Source: a virus
DNA length: 33,934 bases
Reading direction: 5' to 3' (one strand)
Virus record (IMG/VR): IMGVR_UViG_3300026519_000042
Location: 1 to 33,934 of that record
In this document: positions 22,845-33,124 of the stretch, piece after piece
Layout of the letters: each line of letters opens with the position of its first letter
Position numbering within the stretch: the first letter of the stretch is position 1
The notes under the pieces: generated by a model
Seen by the model: only the letters and a program-made list of their open reading frames with translations
The model's database searches: none
What the model was told of the DNA's origin: nothing
Translations under genes and position numbers: made by a program

Positions 22845-24278
22845 TTATGCTGTCCTCAGTTGTTGCTCGTGCTGGAAGTTTTCAGAGACAATCGCGGCGG
22901 CTACTTGTGGACAGACGCTGTTGCCGCACATACGGACCTGTGAAGTCTTGCTCAGAAGTCGTCCATTCGGGCCACGGTCAATGATGTAGCTATCCGGAAA
23001 ACCCTGAATGCGGTACAGCTCACGCGGCTGCAGCATCCGCATGCCGATGTCGGTCAGGACATAGCTCTGCCAGTCAATCGTGACGGTGACGAGCTGGAGC
23101 CGGTCACGGCTGGTGACTGTCGGCGCAGGCGCGCGCAAATCCCGCCCTGTGGTGCCGGATCCGCTGCCGTAGTAGGGTGCAATGAGGGCCGCGACCAAGG
23201 CAGCGTGATTGCCGCCGGCGCAGATGTGGGGTGCGGCTGGTCCATTCCAACGCATGCGGCGGTCGCGGCCCTTGAAGTTGAGCAGGTGTGCTTTGCCCAG
23301 TGCATGGTTGTCTCGTGTTGTTACAGTGCTCATTGGCTGACGTACATCAGCACCTGGACCTTCGTAGTTGTCACCGTAGTGTTTGGCGAGGAATTCGGCG
23401 ACTTGGCTGTGGCGGGCCTTGGATGTGATCTTCGTCAGCGGCAAGTCAACGTCATAGGAGCCTTTGTTGATGCTCTGGTGGTCTATCGTCAGCAAGAACG
23501 GGTCTGGATCGTCCAGCACGAACCGCTGGATGCCATGTGCAATGCGCCGCAATGTATTCTCTGCGAGCGGTCGCTGGCGCTCGAAAATCGACGGGCAGGG
23601 GATAGACCAGTCAATACACTCTGCGGCGGCGCGCCACGGTTGCAGGAGTCCACGACGAACTGCCTCAGAATTCGGATTGCCGTGCGTTGGCGCCGGCCAG
23701 CGGATCGTCTGCCCGTCGCGCCGTGCGATCATGAACAGGCGGCGGCGGATGGTGGGGGCTCCGTAGTTGCAGGCGCGAAGCAGCCGCCATTCCACCTGGT
23801 ATCCGATACGCTCCAACTGCCGGATGAATTCCTGGAACTGCTGCCCCTTGCGCAGCGGGCAGGGGCGCCCATCTTTCGTCATAGGACCCCAGTCCTCGAA
23901 TTCTTCGACGTTCTCCAGCATGATCAAGCGCGGACGCAGGCGCCTGGCCCATTTAACAACAACCCAGGCCATCCCCCTGATCTTCTTGCTGACCGGCTTG
24001 CCCCCCTTGGCCTTGCTGTGATGGGTACAGTCCGGGGAGGCCCAGAGCAGGCCGACCTGCCTGTGGCCGGCGACATCGAGCGGGTTCACGCGGAACACGC
24101 TCTCGCAAAAATGGCGCGTGCGTGGATGGTTGGCTTGGTGCATTGCAACAGCCTCCGGGTCATGGTTGACCGCAATATCCACGCGGCCCATTGCCCATTC
24201 GATTCCGAGTGAGGCTCCGCCACCGCCGGCAAAAAGGTCAATGACAAGCTCGTGTTCCAGGCTGATGTTCAGTTGCAT
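22845..24278 (-). CDS. DNA (cytosine-5) methyltransferase
   Basis: 477 residues. Motif I is DLFAGGGGASLG (14-25), binding S-adenosylmethionine. The catalytic loop is WASPDC84THHSKAKGGKPV, in which Pro-Cys is replaced by Asp-Cys as in a phage subset. Motif VI is LENVEEF (121-127), motif VIII is IRRRLFMIARRDG, and motifs IX/X are QPRELYRIQGFPDSY and RMCGNSVCPQVAAAI. A target-recognition region lies between, so the recognition site cannot be read. It methylates cytosine, probably protecting phage DNA from host restriction. It has its own promoter candidate at 24299-24326. Confidence 0.93.
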   Translation of the reverse strand: MQLNISLEHELVIDLFAGGGGASLGIEWAMGRVDIAVNHDPEAVAMHQANHPRTRHFCESVFRVNPLDVAGHRQVGLLWASPDCTHHSKAKGGKPVSKKIRGMAWVVVKWARRLRPRLIMLENVEEFEDWGPMTKDGRPCPLRKGQQFQEFIRQLERIGYQVEWRLLRACNYGAPTIRRRLFMIARRDGQTIRWPAPTHGNPNSEAVRRGLLQPWRAAAECIDWSIPCPSIFERQRPLAENTLRRIAHGIQRFVLDDPDPFLLTIDHQSINKGSYDVDLPLTKITSKARHSQVAEFLAKHYGDNYEGPGADVRQPMSTVTTRDNHALGKAHLLNFKGRDRRMRWNGPAAPHICAGGNHAALVAALIAPYYGSGSGTTGRDLRAPAPTVTSRDRLQLVTVTIDWQSYVLTDIGMRMLQPRELYRIQGFPDSYIIDRGPNGRLLSKTSQVRMCGNSVCPQVAAAIVSENFQHEQQLRTA

Positions 24279-24298
24279 TCAAGCACTTACCTTAAATA

Positions 24299-24326
24299 AA
24301 TATAACCTTAGGGGACAAGATGTCTA
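24299..24326 (-). promoter_or_regulatory. leftward promoter candidate for the methyltransferase
   Basis: On the minus strand, TAGACA (24326-24321), a 16-base spacer, then TATATT (24304-24299), each matching five of six consensus bases. It lies in an AT-rich 63-base gap, and an AAGGTAAG ribosome site precedes the methyltransferase ATG. It would let methylation be expressed apart from recombination genes. Confidence 0.55.
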
Positions 24327-24341
24327 TACTATCAGATGCGC

Positions 24342-24962
24342 TCAGCATACCACTGTCATCATATTGGCCAGCTTATCAACTTTTTGGTCAACTTCTGTTA
24401 GAAACTCTATAACATCTTTTTCGAGACATCCTATCATATCTGAATTCCTGAATACCCTGACAACTTTTGCCTGAAGTTCCGTAGGCATCCGTGGGTCGTA
24501 TGAAACGAAATCGCACCATTCACGCCCCGTGCAGGCCATCTGCCATTGCATCTGCTTGATGTACTTGTCAGGTATTACCCCGGTCAAAAGAAAGTCGATA
24601 TGAGTCGCGCTGTTCGGGCACTTGATCTCCAGTAAACCGTGATCACATACAAGCCCGTCAGGTGACGCACCAGACATGTCTATTGACGGGTGGCGTATGA
24701 AGCCAACCTCTTCGACCTTCATGTTCGTCGTGAACTCATACCATGCTCGCGCTTGAGGTTCAGTCTCTATTCCCCAAACCATGGCTTGGTTCTGATATGT
24801 TTCTACTGGTTTTCCGGTCAACCTCTCGACGATGAGCTGCGCCATATAGTTTGCCCTGGAAGCCCCCCATCCTGACCGTGTCTTCGCGACGACATCAGCG
24901 ATTCTCGATGCGGTTACTTTCCCGCACCTCTCCAGTAACCATTCCTCTGTGCCCTGAATCAT
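24342..24962 (-). CDS. YqaJ/lambda-exonuclease-type recombination nuclease
   Basis: 206 residues. TEEWLLERCGKVTASRIADV opens the YqaJ-like fold. The catalytic set is visible as GIE66TEPQARAWYE, ASPD102GLV and LE112IKCP (the D-ExK nuclease motif with K114). It degrades one strand from dsDNA ends to create a 3' tail for the annealase encoded just upstream. Start and stop overlap by ATGA with the Erf gene, an obvious co-translated exonuclease-annealase pair. Confidence 0.92.
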   Translation of the reverse strand: MIQGTEEWLLERCGKVTASRIADVVAKTRSGWGASRANYMAQLIVERLTGKPVETYQNQAMVWGIETEPQARAWYEFTTNMKVEEVGFIRHPSIDMSGASPDGLVCDHGLLEIKCPNSATHIDFLLTGVIPDKYIKQMQWQMACTGREWCDFVSYDPRMPTELQAKVVRVFRNSDMIGCLEKDVIEFLTEVDQKVDKLANMMTVVC

Positions 24963-25678
24963 GACGACATCTTCCTTTTTCTCTCAAGCGCCTTGACTGC
25001 CATTTCGTATGCGGCTGCCTGGATGTGCTCGACACTGTCAGCCTTGAGCCATTTGAGGAATGCTTGCTCATCCGCCCCAACCTCAGATATCAGGGCTCGG
25101 ATATTGGCCGCTTGCTCTTCGTTCACCCTGGGAATTGCAGCGCTGTTTCCGTCGTCATCGTCCTCTCCAACGGCAACATTGAAGATGAGCTTCAGCAGGT
25201 AGCGCATGCCGTAACTCATTGCGCTGCCAGCAGCGTGTGTGCGTGTCATCATGGCGTTACCCTTGATTCCCTTCCCATCTGCAGGCACATCGACATGGTA
25301 TGTCCGAGTATGGCCTCCACGATGTGATACATACGCAAGGACCCTGACGCAGTCCTGCGCTGGGCTGTCAGCCGTGTCAAACGACACGGCGAACCCGTGG
25401 CTGGTATAGATCGGCCTCAGCGCCTTGTCCAGTGCGGCATAGGATGCGTATTTGCTCCTGGTCTGTGGATTAACCGCGTCAGCGGAGACGCGCCCAATCT
25501 CGGACTGTGCGGCGCTCATGGCTGCGTTGAAATCCGTCTCGGCCTGGCGGTCCAGGATACGCTCCTGCATATCCAGCATCTTCTCAAGCTTCGCCACGTC
25601 AATGTCAGGATTGGCTGCAGCAGCTTCTATCATTTTCACCACAGCCGTGGTGTCTTCCCTCTTTGTGATTTCGCCCAT
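24959..25678 (-). CDS. erf: Erf-family single-strand annealing protein
   Basis: 239 residues, ribosome site AGGAGGAGAT. The core reads DFNAAMSAAQSEIGRVSADA, SKYASYAALDKALRPIYTSH, GFAVSFDT and AGSAMSYGMRYLLKLIFNVA, the defining blocks of the Erf superfamily. The C-terminus has an acidic stretch (GEDDDDGNSA) then a helical oligomerisation-type tail. It anneals complementary strands during genome circularisation and recombination, paired with the YqaJ exonuclease downstream. Confidence 0.93.
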   Translation of the reverse strand: MGEITKREDTTAVVKMIEAAAANPDIDVAKLEKMLDMQERILDRQAETDFNAAMSAAQSEIGRVSADAVNPQTRSKYASYAALDKALRPIYTSHGFAVSFDTADSPAQDCVRVLAYVSHRGGHTRTYHVDVPADGKGIKGNAMMTRTHAAGSAMSYGMRYLLKLIFNVAVGEDDDDGNSAAIPRVNEEQAANIRALISEVGADEQAFLKWLKADSVEHIQAAAYEMAVKALERKRKMSS

Positions 25679-25687
25679 ATCTCCTCC

Positions 25688-25948
25688 TCAGAAAAAGTAA
25701 ACAATCACGCCAAGAAGAACAGGAAACATAATGAAATCATCCCACGTCGGCGGCAATGTCACATCATGCCTGTGTGTTGATTCAATCCACGTATCACGGC
25801 GCAGCGTGTAGCAATAAAATCGCTTTGCGTTCATGTAATCGCCGCGTTCCGTAAGACGACGGAAATTCTCTATGTCCCAGTTACGTGAGATATTTCTTGA
25901 ATCAATCATAAGATTCACCGGTTCATTAGTTATCAGTCTTGACCTCAT
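25688..25948 (-). CDS. small protein with C-terminal membrane helix
   Basis: 86 residues, overlapping the preceding leftward gene by 23 bp. The N-terminal 68 residues are polar (RNISRNWDIENFRRLTERGD), and the last 15 (FIMFPVLLGVIVYFF) are strongly hydrophobic, a tail anchor. No family is recognised. It belongs to the early leftward operon, so a host-takeover or accessory role is possible but unproven. Confidence 0.6.
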   Translation of the reverse strand: MRSRLITNEPVNLMIDSRNISRNWDIENFRRLTERGDYMNAKRFYCYTLRRDTWIESTHRHDVTLPPTWDDFIMFPVLLGVIVYFF

Positions 25949-26300
25949 GAATGCGCGCTAGAGACATAATCCAGTCCTTGTGCGTCTTCCAGAGTTCCAA
26001 TGCATCATCGGCCATCTGGCTGATTTGTCTGTCATCTAGCGAGTCCCATTCATCTATCGAGTGCTGTCGGCACCCGATTCTGATGTGGGTGTCAAGGATT
26101 GTGATCTGCCATTTTAGTCCAGATATCTGAATGGGTGTTTTTGTGATCTCCACACCAAAAATTTTTACACCGGACAGGATTGCGCCGGACAGGTTTGCGC
26201 GGTCTCTTATGGCCGCCTCGACTGCGAGTTTTATATTCTCGCACTCTTTCTGGAATAATACTTGTCCTGTTACATAGTGTCTGATCTCAATCATCTTCAT
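25926..26300 (-). CDS. conserved phage protein with pentapeptide-like remnant
   Basis: 124 residues. The segment RANLSGAILSGVKIFGVEI looks like one or two degenerate pentapeptide-repeat turns. It is followed by ITILDTHIRIGCRQHSIDEW and DALELWKTHKDWIMSLAR. The IGC-x-x-H-x-x-x-x-W block followed by a W-K-x-x-x-D helix is common in phage early proteins. Function is unknown. The start overlaps the gene before by 14 bp. Confidence 0.7.
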   Translation of the reverse strand: MKMIEIRHYVTGQVLFQKECENIKLAVEAAIRDRANLSGAILSGVKIFGVEITKTPIQISGLKWQITILDTHIRIGCRQHSIDEWDSLDDRQISQMADDALELWKTHKDWIMSLARIHEVKTDN

Positions 26301-26547
26301 GCTCCCATGCTAGTTCTTCTTCTATTTCGGCCAGAAACGAATCCGGCAGAATCCCGGCCAGGCCTACGTCGCGGCATCTTATCGCTACGATCTCGATCTC
26401 GTTCGGCGTGTCCGGCTCGATTGGAACACCCATGGCATCCTTTCGGCCCCGGCAGCCTTTAGTGAATCGGTAGTCCACCTCAATGGGTAAGAATGTCGAG
26501 ACACATCCGATCGTGACTTCCATCTGGAGGATTCTGGTGTTGATCAT
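26287..26547 (-). CDS. conserved small phage protein, early leftward operon
   Basis: 86 residues, ATGA overlap with the gene before. It is beta-rich and then acidic: MEVTIGCVSTFLPIEVDYRF, 'GVPIEPDTPNEIEIVAI', and a C-terminal EIEEELAWEHEDD. This resembles small phage proteins with the PxExVxYxF...G-x-P-x-E-P-D-x-P-x-E layout. No catalytic motif is present; function unknown. Confidence 0.65.
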   Translation of the reverse strand: MINTRILQMEVTIGCVSTFLPIEVDYRFTKGCRGRKDAMGVPIEPDTPNEIEIVAIRCRDVGLAGILPDSFLAEIEEELAWEHEDD

Positions 26548-26690
26548 TCCTCGTTCCTCCTCATAATCCGCTCCATGTCCTCAGCCAATTGGGGGTCAAA
26601 GTCATATGGCGGGAAAACCTCCTCGCCCTGGTGTACGCATGCGATCTTGGCGATGTCTTCGATGATCTTGTTCAGTGCGTCGTCTGTCAT
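26544..26690 (-). CDS. 48-residue acidic protein, first gene of the leftward operon
   Basis: Starts at ATG 26690 after GGGGAGAAAGAC, a good ribosome site, and ends in an ATGA overlap with the next gene. The product begins MTDDALNKIIEDIAKIACVH, continues QGEEVFPPYDFDPQLAED and ends MERIMRRNEE. Helix-strand-helix is likely. No family is recognised. The terminator-like hairpin at 26705-26732 lies just upstream, so its expression depends on readthrough or a missed promoter. Confidence 0.65.
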   Translation of the reverse strand: MTDDALNKIIEDIAKIACVHQGEEVFPPYDFDPQLAEDMERIMRRNEE

Positions 26691-26704
26691 GTCTTTCTCC
26701 CCAT

Positions 26705-26732
26705 AAAAACGCCAGCCTCAGCCAATATGGCG
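26705..26732 (-). terminator. probable leftward intrinsic terminator of the large RNA
   Basis: On the minus strand, CGCCA (26732-26728), 13 bases, then TGGCG (26714-26710), directly followed by TTTTT (26709-26705). The 5-bp stem is modest. It would end the large RNA just before the leftward genes while allowing some readthrough. Confidence 0.5.
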
Positions 26733-27230
26733 AGTCGTGCCGGCGGTGCGGTAGGCGTGAGAGGCGCTATCATGAGCATCCGGGCCGCGCCACCTCCCGG
26801 ACTCTAGGCCCACCGCCACCCACAGCGGATGAGCTCCGCACGGCTTTCTGGCGGGTCCGTGCCCCCGTCCCGAGAGCGCACCCCGGGTGTTCGGCCCTCG
26901 TGAGAGGTGCCCCCGCGCCACCAGGGGCTGCCGCGCTGCGTCGGGCTCCGCCTCTTGGCAGCGGTTCCTCAGGTACTGCCCTCGGACCGGTGTTAGCGAC
27001 CCGAGGCTTCCCTGGATCTCCGCTCCAGTCGCCACCCTGCGGCTACAGGGTGACTCGGCGGGCGTGGCGAGAGGTGATCGGACTCCGGCCACGCAGGGCG
27101 TTACCGCCCCTCTCGACAGGGCATTTCCTCCCTGCCGCCCTGGACTACTCGCCCCGAAGGGCTTCTTTGCTGCCGTTACCCCGTCCCTCCCCAGGGCGAG
27201 TTCCGGACCCCTTTCGGGGCGGCCATGATC
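26733..27230 (-). ncRNA. large G+C-rich structured RNA candidate (~500 nt)
   Basis: No believable protein is encoded in this visibly G+C-rich block. Minus-strand RNA folds into many perfect hairpins: CCCC-GAAA-GGGG (27219-27208), GCCC-TTCG-GGGC (27162-27151), GGGCG-GTAA-CGCCC (27109-27096), a 7-bp stem with one G-U pair at 27136-27115, CACCCTG/CAGGGTG (27052-27033), CCTCGG/CCGAGG (27006-26980), CTGCC/GGCAG (26980-26957) and GCCCC/GGGGC (26928-26909). Three loops are GAAA, UUCG and GUAA. GCCGC and ATCATG at 27219-27230 can pair with GCGGC and CATGAT at about 26768-26791 to close the molecule. A TTGACA promoter starts it and a terminator ends it. A family such as GOLLD, ROOL or another ornate phage RNA is possible; I cannot assign one. 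Confidence 0.65.
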
Positions 27231-27232
27231 GC

Positions 27233-27261
27233 AATCTACACCATCCGTTCATCGCTGTCAA
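27233..27261 (-). promoter_or_regulatory. leftward sigma-70 promoter for the large RNA and early-left operon
   Basis: TTGACA (27261-27256), 17-base spacer, TAGATT (27238-27233; four of six). The predicted start near 27226 falls at the first helix of the structured RNA. The -35 box is part of TGTCAACACCT, whose exact inverted copy lies at the rightward promoter, so both are probably controlled by the same repressor. Confidence 0.75.
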
Positions 27262-27341
27262 CACCTATCGGCAATTTTTTTGCCTTTAAGTGTCCGTTAT
27301 ACTGAACAACAGGTGTTGACACAGAACACTAATAGTGTCAA
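27256..27341. promoter_or_regulatory. operator region between divergent promoters
   Basis: TGTCAACACCT (27256-27266) is the exact reverse complement of AGGTGTTGACA (27311-27321). TTGACAC (27316-27322) and GTGTCAA (27335-27341) form a 7-bp inverted repeat, with ACACT-AAT-AGTGT (27326-27338) nested inside. The repeats overlap both -35 boxes and the rightward spacer, as expected for a Cro-type switch. A GGCAA-T-run-TTGCC element (27269-27284) lies between. Confidence 0.7.
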
Positions 27342-27344
27342 TAT
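27316..27344 (+). promoter_or_regulatory. rightward early promoter before the Cro-like gene
   Basis: TTGACA (27316-27321) with CAATAT at 27339-27344 after 17 bases; an AATATA register is also possible. The -10 is weak, but the -35 is perfect and the box is buried in operator repeats. It reads into the Cro-like gene. Confidence 0.6.
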
Positions 27345-27370
27345 ATGGCAAGCTTGCGATGGAGGGCTCC

Positions 27371-27586
27371 ATGAGGTTCAGAGATCTGATAGATCAGATT
27401 GGGATCAGCGCCTTGCACAAGGACGCTGAGCTCAATATCGGTTATACCGGGATACTGCGCTGGAAGCAGCGCGACAGTATCCCTCCGCATGCCTGGCGCG
27501 CAGTGCTCCGCGTCGCCAGGCAGAAAGGGATTCAGGTCACGGTCAGTGACCTGCTGGACATGGCTGAGGAAAAGAGGAAATCATGA
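27371..27586 (+). CDS. Cro-like helix-turn-helix regulator (carph-isopro type)
   Basis: 71 residues from ATG 27371 (ATG 27359 and GTG 27335 also in frame). MRFRDLIDQIGISALHKDAE, then ILRWKQRDSIPPHAWRAVLR and VTVSDLLDMAEEKRK, follow the layout of small Cro-like proteins: an HTH with W-K-x-R recognition helix, I-P-P-x-x-W, a helical hairpin and a final 'T-x-x-D-L' element. It should bind the operators just upstream and repress one or both early promoters. The ribosome site GGAGGG and the ATG lie in a palindrome (27359-27372), hinting at translational control. No divergent CI-like partner is encoded. Confidence 0.8.
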   Translation: MRFRDLIDQIGISALHKDAELNIGYTGILRWKQRDSIPPHAWRAVLRVARQKGIQVTVSDLLDMAEEKRKS

Positions 27587-27648: not shown

Positions 27649-27784
27649 GGCGATCCCTGGCTGCGGCAAAGTGTCACGTGACGACGTGGCCCAGTAGCCC
27701 TGACCTGGGCAGTTCCTAGGTAACGAGACGCTCCCGCCCCGTCCGACCAGGCGGCACGATTTCGGGGGCAGCCAGTGGATCGCC
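27649..27784 (+). ncRNA. 136-nt structured element closed by a 16-bp stem, just before the tRNA
   Basis: GGCGATCC and CTGGCTGC (27649-27664) pair exactly with GCAGCCAG and GGATCGCC (27768-27784), interrupted only by one bulged T at 27776. Inside are GTCACGT-GACG-ACGTGGC (27673-27690), GCCCAG/CTGGGC (27689-27710) and CCCCG/CGGGG (27737-27767). The tRNA begins six bases later. It contains no open frame of note. Candidates are a small RNA co-transcribed with the tRNA, a regulatory leader, or a DNA cruciform site. No known RNA family is recognised. Confidence 0.6.
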
Positions 27785-27790
27785 GCTATT

Positions 27791-27866
27791 GGGACTGTAG
27801 CTCAATGGGTAGAGCAGGGGACTCATAATCCCACGGTTCCAGGTTCGAATCCTGTCGGGCCCACCA
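27791..27866 (+). tRNA. tRNA with anticodon CAT (Met, or Ile2 reading AUA)
   Basis: 76 bases with CCA encoded. T8-A9, D stem GCTC/GAGC, anticodon loop CTCATAA, T loop TTCGAAT and discriminator A73 are all in place. Three non-pairs exist: 4-69 (A-G), 27-43 (G-A) and 49-65 (C-U). The anticodon arm GGGGA-CTCATAA-TCCCA and the C5-G68 pair look more like tRNA-Ile2, whose C34 becomes lysidine to read AUA, than like elongator tRNA-Met. The heavy use of ATA codons in phage genes supports Ile2, but Met cannot be excluded. Initiator type is unlikely because 1-72 is a normal pair. Confidence 0.88.
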
Positions 27867-27894
27867 TTGACGAGGATAGATAATGTGTTAGAAT
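27867..27894 (+). promoter_or_regulatory. strong extended -10 promoter directly after the tRNA
   Basis: TTGACG (27867-27872) starts at the base after the tRNA CCA. A 16-base spacer leads to TAGAAT (27889-27894), preceded by TGT at 27886-27888 (extended -10). Each box matches five of six bases. The start is predicted near 27901. Confidence 0.75.
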
Positions 27895-27900
27895 TTTTGT

Positions 27901-28022
27901 GTCTGCCTAGGAGTCGCGCCCGATGCAGGCAATAGACCGAGAGAGTGACAGCCCGTTCAGACGGTGGGTGTGGAGGTTATCTCGGCTCCACGCGCGACCC
28001 CACCGATCTGAGCGGGTTTTTT
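27901..28022 (+). ncRNA. ~120-nt leader/small RNA ending in an intrinsic terminator
   Basis: From the predicted start, GTCTGCCT (27901-27908) can pair with AGGC and AGAC (27926-27937) as a first hairpin. The second domain is a long stem from 27952-27967 against 28000-28016 with a GTGGAG/CTCCAC sub-hairpin, ending in TTTTTT. The replication initiator ATG lies 13 bases further. It may be a free small RNA or an attenuator deciding entry into the replication operon. Confidence 0.6.
27952..28022 (+). terminator. intrinsic terminator before the replication operon
   Basis: CCCG-TTCAGA-CGGTGGG pairs with CCCACCG-ATCTGA-GCGGG with one mismatch and a bulge, then T6 at 28017-28022. The loop holds its own GTGGAG/CTCCAC stem. 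Placed between a strong promoter and the initiator start. Confidence 0.85.
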
Positions 28023-28034
28023 AATGGGGTAAAT

Positions 28035-28898
28035 ATGCCAAGGTCGAGATCAATAAAACCTGGAATCATGTGCAACGAAGATGTTGCAGAGTGTGATTTT
28101 GCGACACGTCTCCTGTTCATCTATCTGTGGATGTTGGCGGATAGAGAAGGAAGATTGGAAGATCGGCCAAGAAGAATCAGAGTGCAATCATTCCCGTATG
28201 ACCATGATCTTGACATAGATTCAATGTTGTCATCCTTGCATGAAAAGCGGTTGATATTGAGATATCAAGTTGACGGAAACAAATATATTCAAATACTTAA
28301 CTTCAAAAAGCACCAGACTCCTCACGTAAAGGAACGGGGAAGCACAATACCTGCACCAGAAAAGGAAGTGTCGAGCACCAGTGTTGCACCCCCTGACTCT
28401 CTGACTACTGACTCTCTGACTACTGACTCTCTGAATCATGAATCTCTGACTGAGGATAAAAAACATACGGCCCATTCCGCTGCGCGAAACGGGCCACGTG
28501 CAAAATCAGATCCGCCAGAGGAATTCTTGCTGGCATGGTCGAAATACCCAACAAGGGTAGGTGGAAATCCGAGAAAGCGTGCATTAAATGCCTGGAACGC
28601 AAGAGTGCGAGAAGGGTACTCGCCAAACGAGATGCTTGATGGGCTAGAGAGGTACAGGCGATTCTGTGAAGCGACAGGGATCGTCGGCACAAGTTATGTC
28701 ATGCAGGCTGCGACATTCTTTGGCCCTGACAGGCGGTGGGAGGAGGATTGGGGGCCGCCACAAGACGTCAATCCCATGGACGCCAAGGCTAAGGCCGTCA
28801 TTGCCGCAGCCATGGGTGCAGGACCTGCAGGCGGCGTGGATACCTCCACAACGCAGGACACAGCACACAGAACTTTCGACGGGGAGATTTTGAAATGA
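28035..28898 (+). CDS. replication initiator / replisome organiser (lambda O-like role)
   Basis: 287 residues from ATG 28035; an in-frame upstream extension would run through the terminator and is rejected. The N-terminal domain RSRSIKPGIMCNEDVAECDF, LLFIYLWMLADREGRLEDRP, PYDHDLDIDSMLSSLHEKRL, QILNFKKHQTPH is the winged-helix domain of phage initiators. Residues 121-140 (DSLTTDSLTTDSLNHESLTE) are encoded by four 15-bp iterons. The C-terminal part (FLLAWSKYPTRVGGNPRKRA) would contact the next protein. It should bind the iterons within its own gene and start replication. Confidence 0.88.
   Translation: MPRSRSIKPGIMCNEDVAECDFATRLLFIYLWMLADREGRLEDRPRRIRVQSFPYDHDLDIDSMLSSLHEKRLILRYQVDGNKYIQILNFKKHQTPHVKERGSTIPAPEKEVSSTSVAPPDSLTTDSLTTDSLNHESLTEDKKHTAHSAARNGPRAKSDPPEEFLLAWSKYPTRVGGNPRKRALNAWNARVREGYSPNEMLDGLERYRRFCEATGIVGTSYVMQAATFFGPDRRWEEDWGPPQDVNPMDAKAKAVIAAAMGAGPAGGVDTSTTQDTAHRTFDGEILK
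28395..28454 (+). repeat. four 15-bp iterons, candidate replication origin
   Basis: GACTCTCTGACTACT at 28395 and 28410, GACTCTCTGAATCAT at 28425, GAATCTCTGACTGAG at 28440. An A-rich stretch GATAAAAAACATA follows at once. Direct repeats plus an AT-rich block inside the initiator gene is the layout of the lambda origin within gene O. Confidence 0.75.
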
Positions 28899-32115: not shown

Positions 32116-32294
32116 CAATCGATGGTAAAACAATGACATACTATGAGTGGTCCCGGGTATCCGGAGTCCACAAGGACACGATCAGGGAGCGCGTCGAGAG
32201 ATATGGCTGGGACCCGAAGCGGGCCGTATTCGAGCCGGCCAGGATGGGGAGACCACCGAAACCGAACCACCCCTGGAAGAGGTCGTACAAGTGA
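32082..32294 (+). CDS. small HTH protein with AT-hook-like tail
   Basis: 70 residues from ATG 32082, with GAGGAGGGGAT upstream, overlapping the YbcO gene by 34 bp. TLTIDGKTMTYYEWSRVSGV and HKDTIRERVERYGWDPKRAV form an 'I-D-G-x-x-x-T-x-x-E-W-x-x-x-S-G-V' HTH, common in phages. The end ARMGRPPKPNHP carries a GRP core with basic neighbours. It probably binds DNA; target unknown. Its stop overlaps the Q-like start (GTGA). Confidence 0.75.
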   Translation: MANQWTHPKTLTIDGKTMTYYEWSRVSGVHKDTIRERVERYGWDPKRAVFEPARMGRPPKPNHPWKRSYK

Positions 32295-32824
32295 TCGATA
32301 CATCAGACGCGGAGCTCGCCCTGCAGGCCTGGGGAGAGTGGATAGACCAGAAGGTCTCCAAGGACGAGCTGGGCTATCCCTCGCAATCCTCCACCTACAG
32401 CGTCATGACCTCGGCGCCACCGGTCGAAACCCGTGCCCGCGTCTGGTACTGCACCATCTGCGACGAGCGCCACGAGAAAAAGCCGAGGCGGTGCGTGAGG
32501 TGCGGCGAGAAGAAAACCGTGTCCAAGTGGGAGAAGGTCTGCCACGGGGCAGAGAAGAGAAAAACAAAAAGGAAATCAGAGCAATACCTCAAAGACAGCC
32601 CGCTGTGCGAGGCGATCGACGGGTTGCTCGCCATGCTCCCATCTGAGATGATGGACATCGTCCGCCTGCGATATCAGCGGGGCTACACAGGCCCGCTGAT
32701 CGCCCAGGTGACGCGTACCCCGCGCAGCACGATCGATATCGTGCTCCGAGACACGCGCCACCTGGTGCTCGGCATGATGCACGAGCAAAAAAAATCCCTC
32801 CGCTGGGGAGGGAAGAGAGGGTGA
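32291..32824 (+). CDS. Q-like late gene antitermination/transcription regulator
   Basis: 177 residues from GTG 32291. The opening ALQAWGEWIDQKVSKDELGY with the LGYPSQSS motif is typical of phage Q-type proteins. A zinc knuckle C54-x-x-C57 and C68-x-x-C71 follows, then a basic linker, and residues 106-160 form a sigma-region-4-like HTH (PSEMMDIVRLRYQRGYTGPL, TPRSTIDIVLRDT). It is the last gene of the early operon, upstream of a promoter-terminator pair, just as lambda Q. It should allow RNA polymerase to pass the late terminator. Confidence 0.8.
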   Translation: MIDTSDAELALQAWGEWIDQKVSKDELGYPSQSSTYSVMTSAPPVETRARVWYCTICDERHEKKPRRCVRCGEKKTVSKWEKVCHGAEKRKTKRKSEQYLKDSPLCEAIDGLLAMLPSEMMDIVRLRYQRGYTGPLIAQVTRTPRSTIDIVLRDTRHLVLGMMHEQKKSLRWGGKRG

Positions 32825-32986
32825 GGGCGTGGGCATAAACACCGCCACACAAACGGGGATTCACCTCAAATAATCAGGGATCAAGACTCAGAGATGAACC
32901 ACCTCTCGGACACCTCGTCCTCGTACCATACCATGCAACACCTTTAGGCAAATAATTTATCCCACGATATTCAGCAGCTTACGATC

Positions 32987-33015
32987 TTGACACACACAGC
33001 AGAGTAGTGTATGCC
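32987..33015 (+). promoter_or_regulatory. late promoter candidate (PR'-like)
   Basis: TTGACA (32987-32992), a 17-base spacer and TATGCC (33010-33015; weak -10). The start would be near 33022, giving a leader of about 66 bases that ends at the terminator. A perfect -35 with poor -10 is acceptable for an activator- or Q-dependent promoter. Confidence 0.6.
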
Positions 33016-33061
33016 GTCAACATGATCCCCAGCCTCGCCCCCTCCAGGACTCTCTCCCCGT

Positions 33062-33088
33062 CCCCGCCTGGAGCGGGGCTTTTTTTTT
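33062..33088 (+). terminator. strong late terminator (tR'-like) with alternative hairpin
   Basis: CCCCGC (33062-33067), loop CTGGA, GCGGGG (33073-33078), C, then nine T. Upstream, CTCCAGG (33042-33048) is exactly complementary to CCTGGAG (33067-33073), which overlaps the loop and both stem edges, so a competing fold exists. Confidence 0.92.
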
Positions 33089-33124
33089 GGGCTATTGGAC
33101 AGGTCGGGACGATAGGAGAAGACT

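Follow-up and report, generated by a model that had tools for sequence, protein, structure and literature searches.

The large phage RNAs GOLLD and ROOL occur beside tRNA genes (PMC12286853), and the put RNA of phage HK022, ~70 nt long and composed of two stem-loops, is present in similar copies in both early transcripts (PMC9378689). GC-rich intergenic regions are an established search target that has led to real structured RNAs (PMC6429828), a precedent which, short of proof, is a reason for taking seriously the GC-rich block described here.

The window analysed comprises the 33,934 bases of IMG/VR virus record IMGVR_UViG_3300026519_000042. P22-like genes encode its terminase, portal, coat, head-closure, and ejection proteins, and the nearest portals, at 41–43% identity, are those of Vibrio phage VvAW1, Thalassomonas phage BA3, and Shewanella phage X14. 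Close relatives sought through the HTH protein, the replication protein, and the portal were either absent or ~40% identical. The early region has on its left a minus-strand operon whose genes include those for an Erf-like annealing protein, a YqaJ/RecE-type exonuclease, and a C5 DNA methylase, and on its right the genes for a probable small regulator, tRNA-Met, and a replication-initiation protein (Table 1). A 15-base tandem repeat, CTGACTCTCTGACTA, is present in 3.9 copies within the replication-initiation gene (28393–28451, plus strand).

Table 1. Coordinates of features in the early region, as positions in the window.
Feature	Position	Strand	Remarks
C5 DNA methylase	22845–24278	-	leftward operon
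YqaJ/RecE-type exonuclease	24342–24962	-	leftward operon
Erf-like annealing protein	24959–25678	-	leftward operon
Leftward operon	22845–26547	-	small ORFs, Erf-like protein, exonuclease, methylase
48-aa ORF, probable first gene of the leftward operon	26547–26690	-	sequence and translation
Intrinsic terminator/attenuator at the end of the putative leader	26705–26745	-	-18.4 kcal/mol hairpin, then TTTTT
3′ half of putative leader RNA, GC-rich, non-coding	26764–26992	-	z -0.29, no better than shuffles
5′ domain of putative leader RNA, multi-hairpin with GAAA, UUCG (alternative), and GUAA loops	26993–27227	-	z -3.32
GUAA tetraloop, 6-bp hairpin	27095–27110	-	mean pair probability 0.83
8-bp hairpin CGGCAGGG-AGGAAAUG-CCCUGUCG	27114–27137	-	mean pair probability 0.96
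Switchable arm, pairings A or B	27148–27200	-	probability 0.54 for A, about 0 for B
UUCG tetraloop hairpin (alternative)	~27151–27162	-	hairpin scan
GAAA tetraloop hairpin	27207–27220	-	hairpin scan
Sigma-70-type promoter TTGACA-17-TAGATT, PL-like, probable leftward early promoter	27233–27261	-	10/12 consensus positions
Left arm of 11-bp operator-like element, AGGTGTTGACA	27256–27266	-	overlaps/contains the -35 hexamer of the leftward promoter
Right arm of 11-bp operator-like element	27311–27321	+	divergent rightward promoter region
tRNA-Met(CAT)	27791–27866	+	encoded CCA

A GC-rich non-coding block

The block at 26700–27232 is real, well delimited, non-coding, and an orphan. A first-pass annotation had picked out a G+C-rich stretch of about 500 bases with no credible protein, and both observations stand. 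With a GC content of 0.71, the 500 bases from 26731 exceed every other 500-base window (mean 0.542, sd 0.049), and the block is free of repeats. The frames tested show no periodicity of GC with codon position, with values of 0.64–0.74 at every position, whereas real genes dip to 0.38–0.48 at position 2, and searches against Pfam and PHROG returned no match of note. Open frames do exist (204 aa on the plus strand and 124 aa on the minus strand), however open frames of such length are no surprise at 70% GC, and with neither a codon-position pattern nor a family match, a gene that codes for protein in an unusual frame, already disfavoured, is highly improbable.

Promoter and terminator

The TTGACA-17-TAGATT promoter placed upstream of the block by the first-pass annotation is present (minus strand) and ties for the best promoter match in the region, with transcription expected to start near 27226. 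The 11-mer that takes in its -35 hexamer has only two sites in the window, inverted and 100% complementary, a layout which suggests an operator common to the divergent early promoters. Because the inverted element is common to this pair, the minus-strand promoter is most likely the early leftward promoter and not a private one, and the earlier description of an RNA with a promoter of its own gives way to one half of a divergent early pair. The plus strand of the operator region and of the start of the regulator gene (27261–27495) also folds unusually strongly, with z -4.9 and 0 of 200 shuffles as good, owing partly to palindromes such as TTGACACagaacactaatAGTGTCAA.

At the other end of the block, CGCCGGC...GCUGGCG-UUUUU (26745–26705, minus strand) forms a 7+3+4-bp hairpin, the most stable minus-strand terminator hairpin of the window in the energy scan used, which was missed by a standard scan because its loop exceeds 8. 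The terminator reported ahead of the next gene is thus present between the block and the 48-aa ORF, with the RBS of this ORF, GGGGAGAAAG, directly 3′ of the terminator and the remaining operon following the ORF. A scan from the terminator to the first gene found no strong promoter, only a 9/12 site at 26690–26662 inside the first ORF. The order of promoter, structured leader, intrinsic terminator, and first gene is that of an attenuator leader, with the alternative pairings located in the 5′ domain and none established for the terminator hairpin; no pairing that would directly disrupt this hairpin was found.

In VvAW1 and X14, where the divergent gene order is similar, only ~130–140 bp separate the equivalent genes and there is no such leader. 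The leader would therefore be an addition in the P22-like phage studied here, and the element appears dispensable for an operon design of this type.

RNA structure signal

Support for RNA-like structure is limited to the minus strand. With stems of at least 4 bp that include 3 G-C pairs, and expectations from 5000 dinucleotide shuffles, the minus strand has 3 stable GNRA/UNCG hairpins where 0.39 are expected (P 0.006) and the plus strand has 1 where 0.29 are expected. The GAAA, UUCG, and GUAA loops described for the minus strand were all located, as were the two alternative 8-bp pairings said to share the arm at 27191–27201. Pairing A, CUCGCCCU/GGGGCGAG (8 bp, 27200–27193 with 27155–27148), is better by ~7 kcal/mol than pairing B, CGCCCUGG/CCAGGGCG, in which the UUCG hairpin is freed.

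Other parts of the first-pass description fared less well. It had made much of at least eight perfect or nearly perfect hairpins, a count that GC content leads one to expect, with 11 minus-strand hairpins of at least 5 bp compared with 10.0 ± 2.0 in shuffles (39% of which have as many) and a summed stem length of 77 compared with 58.6 ± 11.8 (reached by 8%). The helix proposed to join both ends of the block is weak, with a pair probability of ~0.2, and its 5′ arm straddles the probable +1 near 27226, such that a start there would remove half of the arm. Fold energy divides the block. Taken whole, its minus strand gives z -1.3, with 12 of 100 shuffles as good. The 5′ half (26993–27227), whose boundaries were picked after a sliding-window view such that the value is optimistic, gives z -3.32 on the minus strand, with 0 of 200 shuffles as good, and z -0.57 on the plus strand. 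The term ornate is hence apt for the 5′ half and not for the 3′ half (Table 1). Across the genome, 16 of 288 non-overlapping 235-nt windows (about 5%; both strands, 20 shuffles each) have z < -3, and fold energy by itself is therefore suggestive, not decisive.

Searches for homologues and known families

No homologue of the block was found in ~50,700 phage records, related viral contigs, and ~950 bacterial genomes, in a search that was broad, not exhaustive, and that reached IMG/VR through protein relatives and exact patterns. Searches with blastn gave no homologue among phages and matched only the tRNA among plasmids, and local blastn and nhmmer searches of the relatives of the Erf-like protein and of the exonuclease, together with the whole records of sets of 41, 36, and 48 related contigs, phages, and genomes, likewise gave none. 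The same holds for sampled genomes from the phylum (398) and the order (300) of a Comamonas carrier and from the class of another carrier (274), and for single-sequence covariance models, R1 and R2, run on 100 sources and 150 genomes. Two pattern scans of viral contigs produced no homologue, with matches lying in coding DNA or resembling chance. Matches of 25–30 nt in the sampled genomes (E 1e-3 to 1e-4) were taken as chance, with no extension in the two that were checked, and GC-rich blocks of non-coding appearance in five relatives proved repetitive, of low complexity, or apparently coding, and none represents this element.

Among all families of Rfam 15, none matched at the gathering threshold, and lax thresholds brought no credible match. 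Direct searches of the window with the GOLLD and ROOL models were also without a match, the ROOL search being weak alone as it was also silent in control genomes, and the analogy with these giant RNAs that had been raised at first finds no backing as family membership. Motifs resembling RNase P and group I RNAs, spotted by eye, were rejected for want of an Rfam score.

Neighbouring elements

The tRNA noted 0.5 kb from the block is confirmed as tRNA-Met(CAT). By eye, its acceptor stem contains an A-G mismatch and its T stem a C-U mismatch, and it may be degenerate or a tRNA-Ile2. Directly 5′ of it, on the plus strand, lies a 141-nt GC-rich non-coding element (27650–27790) that is closed by a bulged 15-bp stem around three internal arms, whose fold has z -2.96 on the plus strand and -2.14 on the minus strand, and for which homologue searches, covariance-model scans included, found nothing. 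A further plus-strand element occupies 27867–28026, where a promoter, TTGACG-16-TAGAAT, begins at the first base past the tRNA and would drive a ~125-nt RNA whose terminator, a very long hairpin with T6, lies just before the replication gene. The structured part (27898–28027) has a fold z of -3.29, and a homologue search for this element found none.

Further along the plus strand, the end of a Q-like ORF and the adjoining intergenic sequence (32666–32900) fold with z -5.3 (0 of 200 shuffles as good), with several long hairpins inside coding sequence. A TTGACA box followed ~90 bases on by a strong terminator, CCCCGCCTGGAGCGGGG-CT9, before the late genes (32987–33089) is a probable Q-type late antitermination site.

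Interpretation of the locus

The anatomy of the block is best read as that of a non-coding RNA, encoded on the minus strand, partly structured, and provided with a promoter and a terminator. Since the promoter is one half of the divergent early pair, the block is most likely a terminated leader, of attenuator or antiterminator type, of the leftward recombination operon. The first-pass annotation had offered such a leader as an alternative, and of its proposals this one best fits the context of divergent promoters, terminator, and gene order. In its full form, a ~520-nt terminated non-coding leader of the leftward early transcript whose 5′ domain governs read-through, we put this reading forward tentatively, with a confidence somewhat short of even.

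RNA polymerase would start near 27226, at a promoter whose operator-like element is common to the divergent rightward early region, the first ~235 nt of the leader would fold into a compact multi-hairpin domain, and polymerase would then meet the intrinsic terminator just before the RBS of the first gene. By default many transcripts would stop there, yielding a free ~520-nt RNA. With the 5′ domain in an anti-terminating form, or bound to polymerase or a factor, transcription could read through into the Erf/exonuclease/methylase operon, an action on polymerase that is modelled on the HK022 put RNA. The same design of promoter, leader, terminator, and genes recurs before the replication gene (promoter at 27867–27894, RNA with its T6 terminator to ~28023), and a strong terminator (33080) also stands ahead of the late genes, adjoining a weakly Q-like antitermination protein (32147–32824; PHROG 79, E 0.001; Pfam PF06530 below cut-off). 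Terminators so placed before operons imply that the phage needs read-through, for which the 5′ domain would be a natural candidate provider. Counting against the leader model are the lack of homologues, the 3′ half without a structure signal, the frequency of z < -3 in arbitrary windows, the lack of a terminator-disrupting pairing, and the leaderless arrangement in VvAW1 and X14.

The promoter and strong terminator also bound a discrete unit of ~520 nt, as would be expected of a large phage RNA that is independent and acts in trans, comparable to GOLLD and ROOL in role but not by family, made early in infection and ended by the terminator, with the operon served by read-through or another promoter. 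The tRNA-Met(CAT) 0.5 kb away, with two further structured non-coding elements beside it, recalls the tRNA-neighbour setting of GOLLD and ROOL (PMC12286853). However, no ROOL, GOLLD, or other Rfam family matches even at lax thresholds, the structure signal is confined to the 5′ half, the closing helix is weak, and the promoter belongs to the divergent early pair, and we regard a trans-acting RNA as possible, if rather unlikely. It would add one more class to the few known large phage RNAs. A bolder and distinctly doubtful proposal is a new large phage RNA class in which the 235-nt 5′ domain would act as an antiterminator or regulator at the leftward promoter, with two structured RNAs flanking tRNA-Met and RNA elements on both sides of the early switch.

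A hairpin count and whole-block energy within the shuffle range, 16 of 288 arbitrary windows at z < -3, and the lack of a homologue in any search, VvAW1 and X14 included, are consistent with the block having no functional RNA at all, being instead a recently acquired GC-rich non-coding segment (a spacer, a remnant, or a DNA-level element) with hairpins that follow from base composition. Against such a segment, which we consider an unlikely account, stand the tetraloop excess and the 5′-half fold, both confined to the strand that a good promoter precedes, the strong terminator that coincides with the end of the block, and the non-repetitive sequence of the block. The function assigned to the terminated leader is a reasoned guess, and as its structure is only partly above background, the block is of moderate interest.

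Comparison with known systems

The likeness of the block to GOLLD and ROOL is limited to its being large, phage-encoded, and near a tRNA, with tRNA-Met(CAT) and the P22-like virion genes lying in the same window. Like GOLLD (RF02032), the block is non-coding and close to tRNA-Met, but it has no covariance-model match and measures 520 nt, where GOLLD often exceeds 800 nt; a homo-oligomeric RNA cage is a further hallmark of GOLLD and ROOL. ROOL (RF03087) is of similar length, with a model of 574 positions, but again there is no covariance-model match, and the structure signal of the block is in its 5′ half only.

In comparison with lambda-type nut/N leaders, the putative leader occupies a similar position in the leftward early transcript, and the GAAA hairpin near its 5′ end presumably resembles boxB in shape only; in contrast to those leaders, no N protein is recognised in this phage and no boxA-boxB pair is established. 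HK022 putL and putR are RNA-only antiterminators of early phage leaders, to which the block is likened hypothetically in its working. With ~520 nt and many hairpins the leader differs from put with its ~70 nt and two stem-loops, and searches of the window, rightward transcript included, with model R2 (from the 5′ domain) and model R1 found no second copy. Like put, it is a non-coding structured RNA that lies directly downstream of what the layout suggests is the leftward early promoter, before a terminator and recombination genes. If the leader controls read-through, in a phage with no recognised early antiterminator, it would be a far larger functional counterpart of the HK022 put RNAs.
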